Shown piece after piece: positions 41,563-47,443 of a stretch of 60,280 nt of DNA; position 1 is the stretch's first letter; every line of letters starts with the position of its first letter. The position numbers and the translations under genes are program-made. Source of the DNA: Thermoplasma sp. GTDB lineage: Archaea > Thermoplasmatota > Thermoplasmata > Thermoplasmatales > Thermoplasmataceae. The notes under the pieces were generated by a model, which saw only the letters and a list, made by a program, of their open reading frames with translations, did no database searches and was not told the DNA's origin. The stretch covers positions 1 through 60,280 of the forward strand of contig NZ_VYIJ01000009.1 in assembly GCF_008709555.1 (NCBI RefSeq), read 5' to 3'.

Positions 41563-42519
41563 ATGAGAATGGAAGAACTGCTAAACGTTGAGGCAAAACC
41601 CCCGGGGCGTACGCCCACAATAAAAGCGTATGCACTTGGGAAGAAGCTCCATCTGAACAGCCTTTTTTTGAAGTTCGAGGGAGCTAACGCAACAGGAACT
41701 CAGAAGGATCGTATCTCTGAGGCGCATGTTATAAATGCAATACGTGGAGACTACAACGGGATCGCCGTGGGTACATGTGGAAACTACGGTGCTTCCATAG
41801 CTTATTTTGCGCACAGATATGGCGTGAAGTCATACATCGGAATACCAAGATCGTATTCGCATGACAGGACAGACTTCATGCAGTCTGAGCAAGCAGAGAT
41901 CCTCTACTATGACGGCAAATACGAGGAAACGGTTGATTACATCAGGGACTTTTCCAGGGACAACGGCCTGTATGATGCAAGCCCGGGATCCGTGAACTCG
42001 TCCATCGACAAGATGATGTACGCCACCATAGCCTTCGAGATATATGAGGCGCTTGTCAGCGTTCCTTCCTATGTCATAGTTCCTGTGGGAAACGGTACAA
42101 CACTCGCAGGCATATATCATGGCTTCAGGAGGATGTACGATGAGGGTGTCATCGACCGCCTTCCGAGGATGGTCGGCGTAAGCACGTCTGGAGGAAATCC
42201 CATAGTTGATTCCTGGAAGCGTGGCTACAACAGGGTGGTCGATCTCAATCCTGATGAGATCAGGGAGACCAGCGTAAACGAACCGCTGGTATCATACAGA
42301 TCGTTCGACGGACAGGATGCCCTCAGGGCAATAAGGGAAACCCACGGCAGGGCCATGTACGTCAGCGACGAGGAGATGGTTTACTACTCCAACCTCATAT
42401 ACAGGGAGGAGGGCCTTAACCCGCTGCCAGCTTCGGCTTCGGCGGTGGCTGCAATAGGCCATATCAAGATAAAGCCAGATGAAACTGTTGTCTCTGTCAT
42501 AACTGGGAGGCAGATATAA
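41563..42519 (+). CDS. Threonine synthase-like PLP-dependent enzyme
   Basis: A 318-residue fold-type II PLP enzyme. GANATGTQKDRISEAH holds the Schiff-base Lys, AVGTCGNYGASIAYFA is the substrate Asn loop, VIVPVGNGTTLAGIYHG is the PLP phosphate-binding glycine loop, and NPLPASASAVAA is near the end. It is shorter than bona fide threonine synthase (about 400) and lacks its N-terminal domain, so the reaction could be another beta- or gamma-replacement. Its TAA overlaps the ATG of the next gene by one base, tying it to a DgcN-like and then a MurL-like protein. Confidence 0.75.
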   Translation: MRMEELLNVEAKPPGRTPTIKAYALGKKLHLNSLFLKFEGANATGTQKDRISEAHVINAIRGDYNGIAVGTCGNYGASIAYFAHRYGVKSYIGIPRSYSHDRTDFMQSEQAEILYYDGKYEETVDYIRDFSRDNGLYDASPGSVNSSIDKMMYATIAFEIYEALVSVPSYVIVPVGNGTTLAGIYHGFRRMYDEGVIDRLPRMVGVSTSGGNPIVDSWKRGYNRVVDLNPDEIRETSVNEPLVSYRSFDGQDALRAIRETHGRAMYVSDEEMVYYSNLIYREEGLNPLPASASAVAAIGHIKIKPDETVVSVITGRQI

Positions 42520-43553
42520 TGGAAACTGCAACAATTTTGTCAGAAGGTGTTTTTGGTACAACATACGGAAAGACCGCAAATGGGCTTGTCAGGTACAGCA
42601 AGCGCTACAAGATACTGTCAGTGATAGACTCAAGGCTGGCCGGACAGGACGCCGGCAACGTGCTCATGCACAGGTATGCAGGAATACCGATAATATCAGG
42701 CGTTGAGGAGGGCCTTCGGGGCGGCGCAGAGACGCTCATAGTCGGGATCGCTTCCGACGGAGGAGTGCTTCCGGACAGCTACAGGCCATACATAAAGACA
42801 GCCATAAACCACGGGATGAATATAGTGAGCGGCCTGCATGACTTCATAAGCGATGATCCTGAGTTCGCGAAGCTTGCAAAGCGCACCGGATCCAAGATAA
42901 CCGATGTCAGGAAGATGTTCAAGGACAGGAAGTACTTCTTCACCGGAAACATAGAGAAGGTGAAGGCAAAGAAGATAGCTGTCCTGGGAACGGACAGCGC
43001 CATAGGGAAGCGTACAACGGCGATATACCTCAACCGCGCCATGAAGGCGATAGGCAAGAAGAGCGTCATGATCGGTACGGGCCAGACCTCGTGGATGCAG
43101 GGCTTCAAGTATACGGTGGTTATAGACGCCATAGTCAATGACTTTGTGGCAGGCGCTCTGGAATCCATAACATACGAGGCATGGGACGCTGAGAGGCCAG
43201 ACTACATGTTCATAGAGGGCCAGGGTTCCGTCCTGCATCCTGCATACCCTGGAAGCTTTGAGATCATAGGCGCAACCAGGCCGGATGCCATAATACTCCA
43301 GCATGCACCGATGAGAAAGTACTTCGACGGCTTCCCCGGATATGAGATACCGCCACTTGAAAAGTTCATAAACATACTCGAGCTGCTGTCAAACAAGCGC
43401 GTCATAGCCATAGCTCTGAACACGGAGAATATGGATGAATCCATGATCAAGGAGGAGAAGTCGAGGCTCCAGGCCAAGTTCGGGATACCTGTTTTCGATC
43501 CATTGCAGAGGCTTTCCTCGGTAACAAGAGAGATAGACAGCTACAAGATCTGA
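42519..43553 (+). CDS. DUF1611 protein, DgcN-like (D-glutamate N-acetyltransferase family)
   Basis: A 344-residue DUF1611 protein. A Rossmann-like N-terminal domain (LVRYSKRYKILSVIDSRLAG) is followed by a P-loop-like KIAVLGTDSAIGKRTTAIYL and by FIEGQGSVLHPAYPGSFEII, the family signature. Bacterial DgcN is reported to acetylate D-glutamate in a D-glutamate breakdown route with the racemase DgcA. The archaeal member may act on a related acidic substrate. Tightly coupled to the PLP enzyme upstream; a run of T and a TTG-started gene follow. Confidence 0.7.
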   Translation: METATILSEGVFGTTYGKTANGLVRYSKRYKILSVIDSRLAGQDAGNVLMHRYAGIPIISGVEEGLRGGAETLIVGIASDGGVLPDSYRPYIKTAINHGMNIVSGLHDFISDDPEFAKLAKRTGSKITDVRKMFKDRKYFFTGNIEKVKAKKIAVLGTDSAIGKRTTAIYLNRAMKAIGKKSVMIGTGQTSWMQGFKYTVVIDAIVNDFVAGALESITYEAWDAERPDYMFIEGQGSVLHPAYPGSFEIIGATRPDAIILQHAPMRKYFDGFPGYEIPPLEKFINILELLSNKRVIAIALNTENMDESMIKEEKSRLQAKFGIPVFDPLQRLSSVTREIDSYKI

Positions 43554-43583
43554 ATCATTTTTTTCAATTTTTGGTGATATATT

Positions 43584-45017
43584 TTGAATACAAGCGTTGA
43601 GAATTCAAGAAGTTACTACGAAAAGGTGCGACAGTTTGATACCATCGACGTCAGCATCGACTCCGTAACAGACAGGAGGATCAGGGCCAGGATCGATGCT
43701 GATAGACTTTCTTTCAATCTGTACTTTGATTATGATGAGGATGTACCACTGGATGAACGGGTTGCCGGAATGATTGCATCGCTTCCAGTGGTCAACTATG
43801 CATACTTCACAAGGGAGATAAGACTCAATTTCCCAGTATCGGAGAGCTTCCTTCATCAGGTCCGCGAGTTCGTAAGGATAAACAACATCGAGACGTTCAT
43901 AAACAGCATAGTAAGGAGAAGGTACGAGTTCTTCAGGAAGCAGTACCTTCCTTGCGATAATGATATAACGCAGGAGAACGCCGAGGGACATACCCTAGTA
44001 AGTGCCAAGGATACTTACAGGGACAATGCAGTGAAGTTTGAACCGGATAGAAACATGGTGGCAGTCATGTCGTCTGGTGGCAAGGAGAGCCTTACCACGT
44101 TCGGTATGCTCAGGGAGATCGGCGCGGAAGTGTTTCCGGTGTTCTTCAACGAATCCGGGGGCCACTGGAAGACCGCCAAGGTGGCCTACGACTACATGAA
44201 AAAAAATTACAGCAACGTGCACAGGGTCTGGTCCAACGTCGACAGGTTCTATGCTTTCATGAACAGGAACATGCCGATGCTCGACCAGAGAGAGATAAGA
44301 AAGACCGCGGACAGTTACCCGATACAGATGTTCATATTCCCAGTCTACGTCTTTTCAATGCTGCCCTATATTCTGAAATACGGAATAGGAAACATAGCCC
44401 TCGGCGATGAATTTGACGATCCGCTGTATCAGGAAGATTACAGAGGCATAAGACACTTCTACGGCGTCTATGACCAGACGAATGAGTTCAATGATACCGT
44501 TTCGGATCTTCTGGCCAGAAACGGCATGCCTGTCAGGGTATTCTCCGCCGTCTATCCCATATTCGGTACGCTTGTCGAGAAGATACTTGTCAACCGCTAT
44601 CCAGAACTGCTCAGGGTGCAGAGGTCATGCCACCTGTGCCATTATGAGGGCAACGAGGTCGTACCATGCGGCAGATGCACAAAGTGCCTGGGCGTCCTTC
44701 TGTTCATGATCAACGCTGGTGCCGATCCAACCGTTGCGGGCTACAGGCCAGACGCCGTCAGGGACCTGAGGAATAACCTTGAGAGCGCAAACATGCGCCT
44801 CGATCCAGTTGAACTTGAGTACCTAAAAAGATCGGTATTCCTCGGGCAGAAAGGAGAGAGCCATGTAGAAGGCATACATCTGATTCCAGGAGAAGATCGC
44901 CCATTTGCCAGCGTTCCTGACCAGTTTCGGGATGGCGTCATGCGCATAATAGCCCAGTACGCAAGCGGCATCTACAGGATCGATGGCGGGTCGTGGAGGA
45001 AGATCCGGGCACAGTAG
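43584..45017 (+). CDS. MurL-like ATP-pyrophosphatase-type protein
   Basis: A 477-residue protein with an ATP-PPase loop, VAVMSSGGKESLTTFGMLRE (around residue 155), and a Cys-rich stretch CHLCHYEGNEVVPCGRCTKC (around residue 350) fit for a metal. The layout and motifs resemble my recollection of MurL, the bacterial enzyme that uses ATP to epimerise the terminal L-Glu of UDP-MurNAc-dipeptide to D-Glu; I cannot verify this. Thermoplasma has no murein, so the substrate must differ. The start is TTG 43584: GGTGAT at 43573-43578 is 5 bases upstream and no ATG fits. Follows the DgcN-like gene by 30 bases. Confidence 0.6.
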   Translation: MNTSVENSRSYYEKVRQFDTIDVSIDSVTDRRIRARIDADRLSFNLYFDYDEDVPLDERVAGMIASLPVVNYAYFTREIRLNFPVSESFLHQVREFVRINNIETFINSIVRRRYEFFRKQYLPCDNDITQENAEGHTLVSAKDTYRDNAVKFEPDRNMVAVMSSGGKESLTTFGMLREIGAEVFPVFFNESGGHWKTAKVAYDYMKKNYSNVHRVWSNVDRFYAFMNRNMPMLDQREIRKTADSYPIQMFIFPVYVFSMLPYILKYGIGNIALGDEFDDPLYQEDYRGIRHFYGVYDQTNEFNDTVSDLLARNGMPVRVFSAVYPIFGTLVEKILVNRYPELLRVQRSCHLCHYEGNEVVPCGRCTKCLGVLLFMINAGADPTVAGYRPDAVRDLRNNLESANMRLDPVELEYLKRSVFLGQKGESHVEGIHLIPGEDRPFASVPDQFRDGVMRIIAQYASGIYRIDGGSWRKIRAQ

Positions 45018-45018
45018 T

Positions 45019-45510
45019 TCAGAAATAAGCCTTTTCTATCTCCGGAATTTTTTCCGGATCCGCCTCGCGGTATTCGTCAAGCGGGTTTCTGTTAAGCTGT
45101 ATGAAGTTCATGCCCCAGGTGTACTTTGACAGGATCATGGATGCCTCGTCTCCATGGCCTGTTATATAAAGTGCTGCTGCAACGGCCTCTATTGATGATA
45201 ACTTCTCAAGCTTCCCGTAGTTGACAGGATTTGCGGCAAGCAGCTTTGGGAGCCTGCGGCCGTGAGCGAAATGCATATCGATGAACGTCTCCTGCCTGTT
45301 CCATGATCCCTCGATCACGCATATTCCGTCTCTTTCCATCATCGGGCCGTCATACTTCGACAGTATCCTATCGGCAGAAGGCGTGAGCGTTATCTTTTCC
45401 CTTGCAGCGCTTGGGCTTATCCTCCTTGCCAGCCCGAACCTTTCTAGTTTCCTCATGGTTGATTTTTTCGGATCGTCCTGTCTGAGGTAGATGAAGTAGA
45501 TCTGGATCAT
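45019..45510 (-). CDS. tsr3: Tsr3-like rRNA aminocarboxypropyltransferase
   Basis: A 163-residue DUF367/Tsr3 protein. The segments seen are RQDDPKKSTMRKLERFGLAR at the N-terminus, then CVIEGSWNRQE, GRRLPKLLAANPVNYGKLEK and LSSIEAVAAALYITG. The family transfers the aminocarboxypropyl group of SAM to a hypermodified pseudouridine in small-subunit rRNA. Its ATG overlaps the stop of the upstream dtdA gene by 4 bases, so both are in one minus-strand unit. Confidence 0.88.
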   Translation of the reverse strand: MIQIYFIYLRQDDPKKSTMRKLERFGLARRISPSAAREKITLTPSADRILSKYDGPMMERDGICVIEGSWNRQETFIDMHFAHGRRLPKLLAANPVNYGKLEKLSSIEAVAAALYITGHGDEASMILSKYTWGMNFIQLNRNPLDEYREADPEKIPEIEKAYF

Positions 45511-46277
45511 ATGGTTATCAATTCGAGTGAATGTTCATCGACGTATTTCTTGACCATCTCCCTGACGTTTCCGCGTGTACCCTTCCTGTCCATTACGAAG
45601 CCCCTGCATCCCGGCGTCCTCTTCACGGCCATATCTATCTCCCAGGCCTCAAGAGCGTCGTGATCATGCTTCGATATTATGTGGCCTATGTTGACGCTGT
45701 TCTCCCTGAAATAATCCTTTATCTTAGGGGCGTAGTGGCCCCCGCCAACTCCAACGAAGTTATCGTAATCGCGTATATCCGGATTCATCACCGCATCCAC
45801 CGTGGTGCTCAGGGCCTCAGGATCGTTCCATTCGTTTTCGGTCGTGCCTATCTCAACGTAGTAGTTCGGTATATCGAATATCGGCCCATGGTGAGTGGCC
45901 TCGAACGTTACTTCAAACTTGTTGCCGCTGTAAGATTCCATCATCTTCCTGAGCGTACCAGACATGATCTTTGGGCATGAGATGTTTATAGTCCTTGGCT
46001 TTCCGCCTAGATCTGCTGACGGGCCGAAGTTACCCGTGGGATGGGCGGTCACCGACTTCACATCAGCGGCTGAGGAATGCCTCGAAAGAACGACGACGTA
46101 ATCATACTTTCCGGAAAGGGTCATATCGTGGAATATGTGCCTGTCCTCTATTACCATAAGATCGAAATCGCCATGGTTCAGAATTCCATCCCTCTCTGAG
46201 AACTCATACTTTTCAGTGAGGTAATCCAGCATCTTTACACTTGCAGGATCCGATCTGGAAGCTATTATCAGGTGCAT
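45507..46277 (-). CDS. dtdA: D-aminoacyl-tRNA deacylase, archaeal type
   Basis: A 256-residue DtdA (DTD2) protein. SRHSSAADVKSVTAHPTGNFG, FEATHHGPIFDIPNYYVEIG and GVGGGHYAPKIKDYF are the three conserved blocks, with metal-binding His and Glu residues. It frees tRNA from D-amino acids or other chiral mistakes. ATG 46277 is preferred; a GTG two codons upstream (46283) is the alternative. First gene of the dtdA-tsr3 pair, next to the MurL-like gene on the other strand. Confidence 0.9.
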   Translation of the reverse strand: MHLIIASRSDPASVKMLDYLTEKYEFSERDGILNHGDFDLMVIEDRHIFHDMTLSGKYDYVVVLSRHSSAADVKSVTAHPTGNFGPSADLGGKPRTINISCPKIMSGTLRKMMESYSGNKFEVTFEATHHGPIFDIPNYYVEIGTTENEWNDPEALSTTVDAVMNPDIRDYDNFVGVGGGHYAPKIKDYFRENSVNIGHIISKHDHDALEAWEIDMAVKRTPGCRGFVMDRKGTRGNVREMVKKYVDEHSLELITI

Positions 46278-46438
46278 TGCCACGAATATTTTTGCAAGCT
46301 ATATGAGGATTGTCTATTTCTTCTTCTGCCAGAGAAAACCCATTTGATCCCTTTATTCGATTTGTTTTGAACAGGTTAAGAAAATGGCGGTGGCCAGTCT
46401 ATCGTGAGCAATATCCATCTTATGATATCATGCCCATG

Positions 46439-47443
46439 TCAGAAAGTAGTTATTACGGATCTAAGAGCTTCTATCAGAATCCTATTCTCTGATCTCTCCC
46501 TTACGGCAACTCTGTAGCAGTTTTTGCCCAGATCCACATAGTCTGATAGATCTCTTATCAGTATTCCGTATTTCAAAAGACTATCTCTCAGATCCACATT
46601 GAATGGGGATCTGAAGGCTACGAAGTTGGCCCTTGGTCTTCCGAGTATCTCGAAGCCGAGATTCTCCAGTTCTTTTATCATATAAGCCCTTTCCCTATCA
46701 ACCCTGGGCAGTGTTATCTTACTTATTGCTGAAAGATCCGTCTTCCTTAAGAATTCTATCGCAGGCTCACAGACCGACCACGGTTCTGTCTTATCTTTGA
46801 TCATATTGAAAACGGATTCACTGACCATGATGTATCCTATCCTGAGCGAAGGCACTGCTAGGATCTTTGTGAGCGATCTACCTATGATCATGTTTCCTGT
46901 CTCCTCCGCTATCCTGACCGTTTCCTCGGCATGTCCCGGGACGAAATCGCCAAATGCCTGATCCACGAATAGTATGCCACCTATCCTGTTCATCTCATAT
47001 GATATCTGGCGCAGAAGAGCAGTATCCACAATGTCTCCTGTTGGATTCACGGGTGAACATATGAAAACACAGTCCGGATTGTATGATCTTATGATCCTTG
47101 GATTCTTCTCAAGAACGCCGAGACTCAGCGATGAAACCTCTGCACCATATGCCGCCAGCGAAGATTCGTATTCATTGAAGTTGGGCGTGATCACAAGCGA
47201 ACGCCTGATCCTGAGCCATGATGGTATTCTGTATATGAAATGCGTGAGGCCTGGACCGATAATGACCTTCATGGATCTTGATCCGGTGTACTTCATTATC
47301 TTCCTTTCAATATCCACCGCAGTGACCTCAGGGTACCTTGCCAGGGTACCTGTATCCAAGAAGGCGTTGACGTTTGCGCTGAAGTCGAGAATTTTGTCGG
47401 CCATATCGCCATATCTGTAGACATCCCCGCCGTGCTCTCTCAT
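46439..47443 (-). CDS. CobD/histidinol-phosphate-type aminotransferase (threonine-phosphate decarboxylase-like)
   Basis: A 334-residue fold-type I PLP enzyme. It opens HGGDVYRYGDMADKILDFSANVN, the mark of CobC/CobD threonine-phosphate decarboxylases, and shows SPVNPTGDIV, VDQAFGDF and SLTKILAVPSLRIGY with the PLP Lys. The likely product is aminopropanol phosphate for the cobalamin lower loop. Histidinol-phosphate aminotransferase is the main alternative, but the N-terminal signature favours the cobalamin role. No other cobalamin gene is in the window. Confidence 0.72.
   Translation of the reverse strand: MREHGGDVYRYGDMADKILDFSANVNAFLDTGTLARYPEVTAVDIERKIMKYTGSRSMKVIIGPGLTHFIYRIPSWLRIRRSLVITPNFNEYESSLAAYGAEVSSLSLGVLEKNPRIIRSYNPDCVFICSPVNPTGDIVDTALLRQISYEMNRIGGILFVDQAFGDFVPGHAEETVRIAEETGNMIIGRSLTKILAVPSLRIGYIMVSESVFNMIKDKTEPWSVCEPAIEFLRKTDLSAISKITLPRVDRERAYMIKELENLGFEILGRPRANFVAFRSPFNVDLRDSLLKYGILIRDLSDYVDLGKNCYRVAVRERSENRILIEALRSVITTF

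Follow-up and report, generated by a model that had tools for sequence, protein, structure and literature searches.

Why would a wall-less, acidophilic archaeon carry, side by side, the genes for a pyridoxal phosphate (PLP) enzyme, a DUF1611 protein and a relative of MurL, an epimerase of murein synthesis? The question arises in a stretch of 60,280 nucleotides from Thermoplasma sp. (contig NZ_VYIJ01000009.1 of assembly GCF_008709555.1; hereafter the window, meaning the whole stretch of DNA analysed), whose source genome comprises 1.45 Mb in 46 contigs. The first-pass annotation described the three genes as encoding a PLP lyase, a DgcN-like protein and a MurL-like protein, and proposed a route making or using a D-acidic amino acid. 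This interpretation was partly supported. Its themes (MurL kinship, stereochemistry and a conserved unit) were right, whereas its details (DgcN identity and D-glutamate) were unproven or wrong. Judged by its relatives and gene neighbours, the trio probably inverts or caps an amino acid's stereocentre by means of an ATP-using enzyme. Its elements are as follows.

41563..42519, plus strand: P0001, a fold-type-II PLP enzyme (PALP) of a threonine-synthase-like subfamily, with TGTQK48DR and T-C72-GN(Y/F)G conserved
42519..43553, plus strand: P0002, a DUF1611 protein with a Rossmann-like N domain and a P-loop C domain, distantly related to DgcN, TM0796 (2g0t) and 2obn
43573..43579 (approximate), plus strand: the GGTGAT ribosome-binding site of P0003, read directly in the sequence
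43584..45017, plus strand: P0003, a PP-loop ATP pyrophosphatase of the QueC/MurL superfamily, with a TTG start

These closely spaced genes were found on the plus strand exactly where the first-pass annotation had placed them. The stop codon of the PALP gene (TAA, 42517-42519) and the start codon of the DUF1611 gene (ATG, 42519) have a single base in common, and the P0003 gene starts at TTG 43584 with its own GGTGAT a few bases upstream, both as first described. P0001 matched Pfam PALP (4e-60), and P0002 matched DUF1611_N (5e-30) and DUF1611_C (4.6e-65), with both domains (PF07755/PF17396) exceeding the gathering score (219 and 104 bits). P0003 is a protein of 477 residues with a PP-loop, SSGGKES, at residues 163-169 and a Cys cluster formed by C349, C352, C362, C365 and C368.

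The occurrence of the trio was analysed in a family sample of 25 Thermoplasmataceae genomes, including its own, and in a phylum sample of 294 Thermoplasmatota genomes. Contiguous PALP, DUF1611 and PP-loop genes in the same order were present in 24/25 family genomes, the sole exception being a genome that is 76% complete, and the neighbourhood check suggested at first pass thus returned a conserved unit. For the phylum counts, a score of at least 413 bits was required for the DUF1611 subclade, at least 320 bits for the PALP subfamily, and full length for the PP-loop gene. A full-length PP-loop gene occurred in 55/294 genomes and the DUF1611 subclade in 54, all of them within those 55, whilst the PALP subfamily occurred in 52 of the 54 and in no other genome of the sample. 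Co-occurrence was assessed by Fisher test on genome counts, ignoring kinship between genomes. Given this near-perfect co-occurrence and the contiguity within the family, the arrangement far exceeds chance expectation. The DUF1611-PP-loop pair was kept in two other families of the order, where PALP was in most cases absent or encoded at a distance, and it recurred in several families elsewhere in the phylum. In another family of the phylum (f26), most loci again had a contiguous trio, accompanied by a convergent GNAT gene in 13/15.

Individual genomes showed further variation. Among the phylum genomes sampled, one alone (G152, locus L083) has a full PP-loop gene but lacks a DUF1611 match; it has apparently lost the upstream part of the operon. 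Two others (G110 and G263, loci L181 and L182) encode a PALP with the SCGN/GT(Q/H)KDR signature and have a DUF1611 gene, the PP-loop gene being absent.

We further investigated whether P0003 is related to MurL, an enzyme that needs ATP, makes AMP and acts in the L to D direction only, and which reviews describe as lacking known conserved domains or as having an unclear mechanism (PMC5808125, PMC8788868). Searches with the single P0003 sequence against Pfam, NCBIfam, PDB and plasmids gave nothing useful, with no Pfam family above its cut-off. The hidden Markov model (HMM) search proposed at first pass likewise failed to recover MurL, as model NF041275 (cut-off 700 bits) gave no match at E <= 1; P0003 orthologs in another family reached this model at E 0.006-0.09 only. 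Profile comparison was more revealing. The MurL reference set consisted of annotated database sequences, namely Xanthomonas sacchari murL, which is annotated as such, immediately precedes murD and reaches 836 bits with the MurL model, together with three relatives from Pseudonocardia. Twenty-one P0003 orthologs aligned to these four sequences with a probability of 66% (E 5.6e-5), and 40 orthologs, compared without realignment, with a probability of 75% (E 2.5e-5) over 194 columns. The probability rose to 95% (E 2.1e-8) when two archaeal intermediates (L136 and L137) that score with both families were included. All hhalign figures are E-values of single comparisons; reversed and unrelated controls gave E >= 0.04.

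The shared features were also colinear. The PP-loop GGK(D/E)S, its spacing, a (D/H)Q motif, SC(H/N) and C..C.KC follow one another identically in both families, which also share a stretch rich in serine and leucine, and the core from PP-loop to C..C.KC runs in parallel over about 190 columns. Length is similar, and a region of ~150 residues precedes the PP-loop in both. By these alignments, the MurL resemblance of P0003 is genuine but distant, reflecting homology of the core. The genomic settings differ: Xanthomonas murL is followed by murD, whereas P0003 has neither MurD2 nor a murein pathway alongside, its neighbours being PALP, DUF1611, Tsr3 and DTD2.

The comparison sequences had features of their own. 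The Pseudonocardia plasmid proteins (L123-L125), annotated as hypothetical, were 33-36% identical to Xanthomonas MurL, and the one scanned with the MurL model scored 322 bits, under the 700-bit cut-off; each of their genes adjoins a convergent large gene (WD40-repeat in two), with no murD alongside. The intermediates (L136:437-1855 and L137:2916-4337, minus strand) belong to a separate Thermoplasmatota PP-loop family of ~470 residues, a further unnamed member of the superfamily, and scored ~72 bits to the P0003 profile and 23-28 bits to the MurL profile. Their gene neighbourhoods were uninformative.

The AlphaFold model of P0003 (predicted local distance difference test, 91.6) combined a PP-loop Rossmann core with the Cys cluster, and its top Foldseek matches were QatC (4.6e-6), QueC (6.6e-5) and Cap9 (1.9e-3). 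This predicted core fold and the Cys cluster are shared with all three, and an N-terminal extension is shared with QatC (PMC13279940). Since the MurL core aligns, the flanking domains show no detectable relationship and the predicted structure is nearest to QatC and QueC, P0003 represents a new family of the QueC/MurL-type superfamily; it is a relative of MurL and not a member. The MurL likeness reported at first pass therefore stands for the core, as seen against real MurL sequences, but not for the family assignment or the nearest fold.

The main rival explanation follows from the same structural neighbours. P0003 may form amides or ligate in the manner of QueC, Cap9 and, as proposed, QatC, joining an adenylated carboxylate to ammonia or an amine. 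The trio would then produce an amino acid or peptide in amidated or conjugated form, and its link to stereochemistry would be incidental. Besides the fold and the QueC-like Cys cluster, this explanation draws on weak Pfam QueC (PF06508) matches in some members of the P0003 family (none for P0003; best E 0.013, under cut-off) and on a 213-column QueC alignment (E 3e-7) once the two intermediates are added. However, without the intermediates the QueC alignment shrank to 36 columns at the PP-loop, compared with the 194 columns of the MurL alignment, and SGYPDC, the motif by which QueC recognises CDG (7-carboxy-7-deazaguanine), was absent from P0003 and its relatives and present in the fetched QueC sequences. 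Unlike the loci of QueC, QatC and Cap9, that of P0003 showed no deazaguanine or defence genes nearby, and P0003 matched no PADLOC defence family. A racemase also often fills the place of the DUF1611 partner elsewhere, as described below. We regard amide formation as a serious but doubtful alternative.

P0002 carries both DUF1611 domains, as DgcN does, and the first-pass annotation took it to be DgcN-like. It scored 193.5 bits against the DgcN model NF041892 (cut-off 480), and a long, well-supported branch parts it from DgcN in the DUF1611 tree; an identity with DgcN was ruled out on both counts. The nearest relatives of P0002 (43-45% identity) are encoded by DUF1611 genes on Phaeobacter and Vibrio plasmids, each followed by an overlapping gene for a PLP enzyme of the alanine/ornithine-racemase family. 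Among these plasmid pairs (L101-L103), a groEL/groES pair lies near in L101 and L102, and the gspS2 pilot lipoprotein gene comes next in L102 and L103. All PP-loop-linked DUF1611 members formed one clade (100/98) beside the ornithine-racemase-linked clade (99/99), and in both groups the paired genes overlap or abut; the partner is a PLP racemase in Vibrio, Phaeobacter and some Thermoplasmatota, but a PP-loop enzyme for P0002.

Other DUF1611 genes adjoin epimerases. In Pseudoalteromonas, dgcN adjoins dgcA, which encodes an enolase-type epimerase, and in Halorussus the gene after DUF1611 is annotated as a dipeptide epimerase. Thermoplasmatota DUF1611 genes without a PP-loop gene had an enolase epimerase gene adjacent (L155, L165) or two genes off (L107/L108), or an ornithine-racemase-like gene adjacent (L156, L157). 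The enolase neighbours resemble the DgcN-DgcA pathway, although Thermoplasma itself has no DgcA-like enolase beside P0002. On the basis of these neighbours and the tree clades, DUF1611 subfamilies tend to pair with one kind of stereo-inverting enzyme. In Thermoplasmata, a MurL-related enzyme fills the place taken elsewhere by a racemase or epimerase of a different fold. This exchange of partners, an argument by association, carries the most weight in favour of the proposed function. The D-acidic amino-acid route put forward at first pass thus keeps its link to stereochemistry, but an acidic substrate, glutamate included, is not supported in Thermoplasma. A search of the five Thermoplasma-genus genomes revealed no member of the Asp/Glu racemase family, and therefore this family provides no known standard source of D-Glu in them.

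P0001 resembles threonine synthase in fold, its nearest solved structures being threonine synthases (26-28% identity) with serine racemase further down, and it passes NCBIfam NF004996 'threonine synthase' (PRK06381; 493 bits, cut-off 266), a family name that is itself an annotation. It differs in conserved active-site motifs. In nearly all of 30 aligned PALP members TCGN replaces STGN and GTQKDR replaces GSFKDRG, departures from this pattern were single (SCGN, GSQ and GTH), and the Cys and the PLP lysine were invariant. Threonine-synthase-type homologs of the same phylum retain GSFKDRG/STGN, and the genome has a separate threonine-synthase-type protein elsewhere, with KDRG and SSGN. By these motifs, the PALP members form a distinct subfamily, and threonine biosynthesis, considered as the role of P0001, was judged unlikely given the changed motifs and the second gene. 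The active-site serine of serine racemase, Ser84, is catalytic. When aligned by motif, Cys72 of P0001 falls at its position, and a racemase or a D-specific lyase is plausible; the earlier label of PLP lyase names just one possible chemistry.

Our preferred reading, held tentatively and with rather less than firm confidence, is that the trio is a Thermoplasmata amino-acid stereochemistry operon, performing ATP-driven epimerisation or carboxylate activation of an N-acylated or free D/L amino acid. We infer the reactions, their order, direction and substrate as follows. P0003 would adenylate an N-acylated or peptidyl amino acid at its alpha-carboxylate, forming an acyl-AMP as PP-loop enzymes do, which would make the alpha-proton acidic and labile. 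As has been proposed for MurL, hydrolysis would then free the inverted acid together with AMP and pyrophosphate. P0002 would supply or consume the N-acylated amino acid, and P0001 would deal with the free amino acid via PLP, perhaps racemising it or acting on its D-form, with Lys48 and Cys72 on opposite faces. The enolase-superfamily and M14-like genes alongside the trio in 7/15 f26 loci, described below, also favour this reading. A broader version, in which murein-less archaea make a novel D-amino-acid-containing metabolite or cap with a MurL-related ATP-dependent epimerase, a DUF1611 protein for acyl transfer and a fold-II PLP enzyme of the Cys/Lys type, and in which MurL is part of a larger QueC-type superfamily of epimerases that activate carboxylates, seems to us unlikely as it stands.

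Several observations weigh against the stereochemistry operon. When the N- and C-terminal domains of P0003 and MurL were compared separately, no homology was detectable, leaving only the PP-loop/Cys core in common. The best fold matches, QueC and QatC, have known or proposed chemistry of amide formation on a carboxylate, not epimerisation. Many DUF1611 genes without a PP-loop partner had no adjacent racemase gene, and several in Thermoplasmatota had neither an enolase epimerase nor an ornithine-racemase-like gene beside them. Finally, a PLP racemase requires a free amino group whilst MurL-type and enolase-type enzymes use acylated substrates, and therefore the various DUF1611 partners need not catalyse the same step.

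A salvage route is a second alternative. The archaeon would feed on dead bacteria, and the trio would convert D-amino acids derived from murein or protein, or D-containing peptides, to L-forms, with a function like that of DgcN-DgcA. This is consistent with the place of dgcN in a pathway that irreversibly racemises acidic D-amino acids and the corresponding amides (PMC12363236), with an M14 carboxypeptidase gene close to dgcN-dgcA in Pseudoalteromonas, and with the enolase-superfamily and M14-like peptidase genes alongside the trio in 7/15 f26 loci, where the best NCBIfam model for the enolase was L-Ala-D/L-Glu epimerase (238 of 500 bits; DgcA 149 of 400). However, the near-universal retention of the trio in the family and the 98% identity of P0002 from one Thermoplasma species to another resemble a core rather than an accessory catabolic function, and no transporter or secreted peptidase lies directly beside the trio in the window, which makes salvage improbable. 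Least probable is that P0001 simply duplicates threonine synthase and that the trio does not constitute a single pathway: the NF004996 and structural matches and the separation or loss of PALP in two families favour it, but the replaced motifs, the other threonine-synthase-type gene and the 52/54 co-occurrence speak against it.

These comparisons place the MurL core in the QueC-type PP-loop superfamily and identify P0003 as a thermophilic MurL relative that may be more tractable experimentally. The pattern of partners makes DUF1611, a mostly uncharacterised domain, a testable stereochemistry module, and Thermoplasma, long studied, gains a concrete candidate for D-amino-acid metabolism.

Two genes on the opposite strand follow the trio.

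45019..45510, minus strand: Tsr3-like 16S rRNA aminocarboxypropyltransferase (DUF367), a convergent neighbour across most of the family
45507..46283, minus strand: DTD2-type D-aminoacyl-tRNA deacylase (PF04414, 5.6e-63)

The D-aminoacyl-tRNA deacylase reported beside the trio is thus present on the other strand, but it is near and not next, because the Tsr3-like gene intervenes. In ten other family loci, DTD2 was directly upstream of PALP in the same direction, with Tsr3 convergent downstream. This adjacency is weak evidence, as DTD2 is generally known in archaea and its adjacency to the trio was seen only within the family of the window's genus. Further along the minus strand, 46439-47443 matched the NCBIfam model for histidinol-phosphate aminotransferase (PRK06425, 481 bits), with a likeness to CobD threonine-phosphate decarboxylase too (215 of 290 bits).

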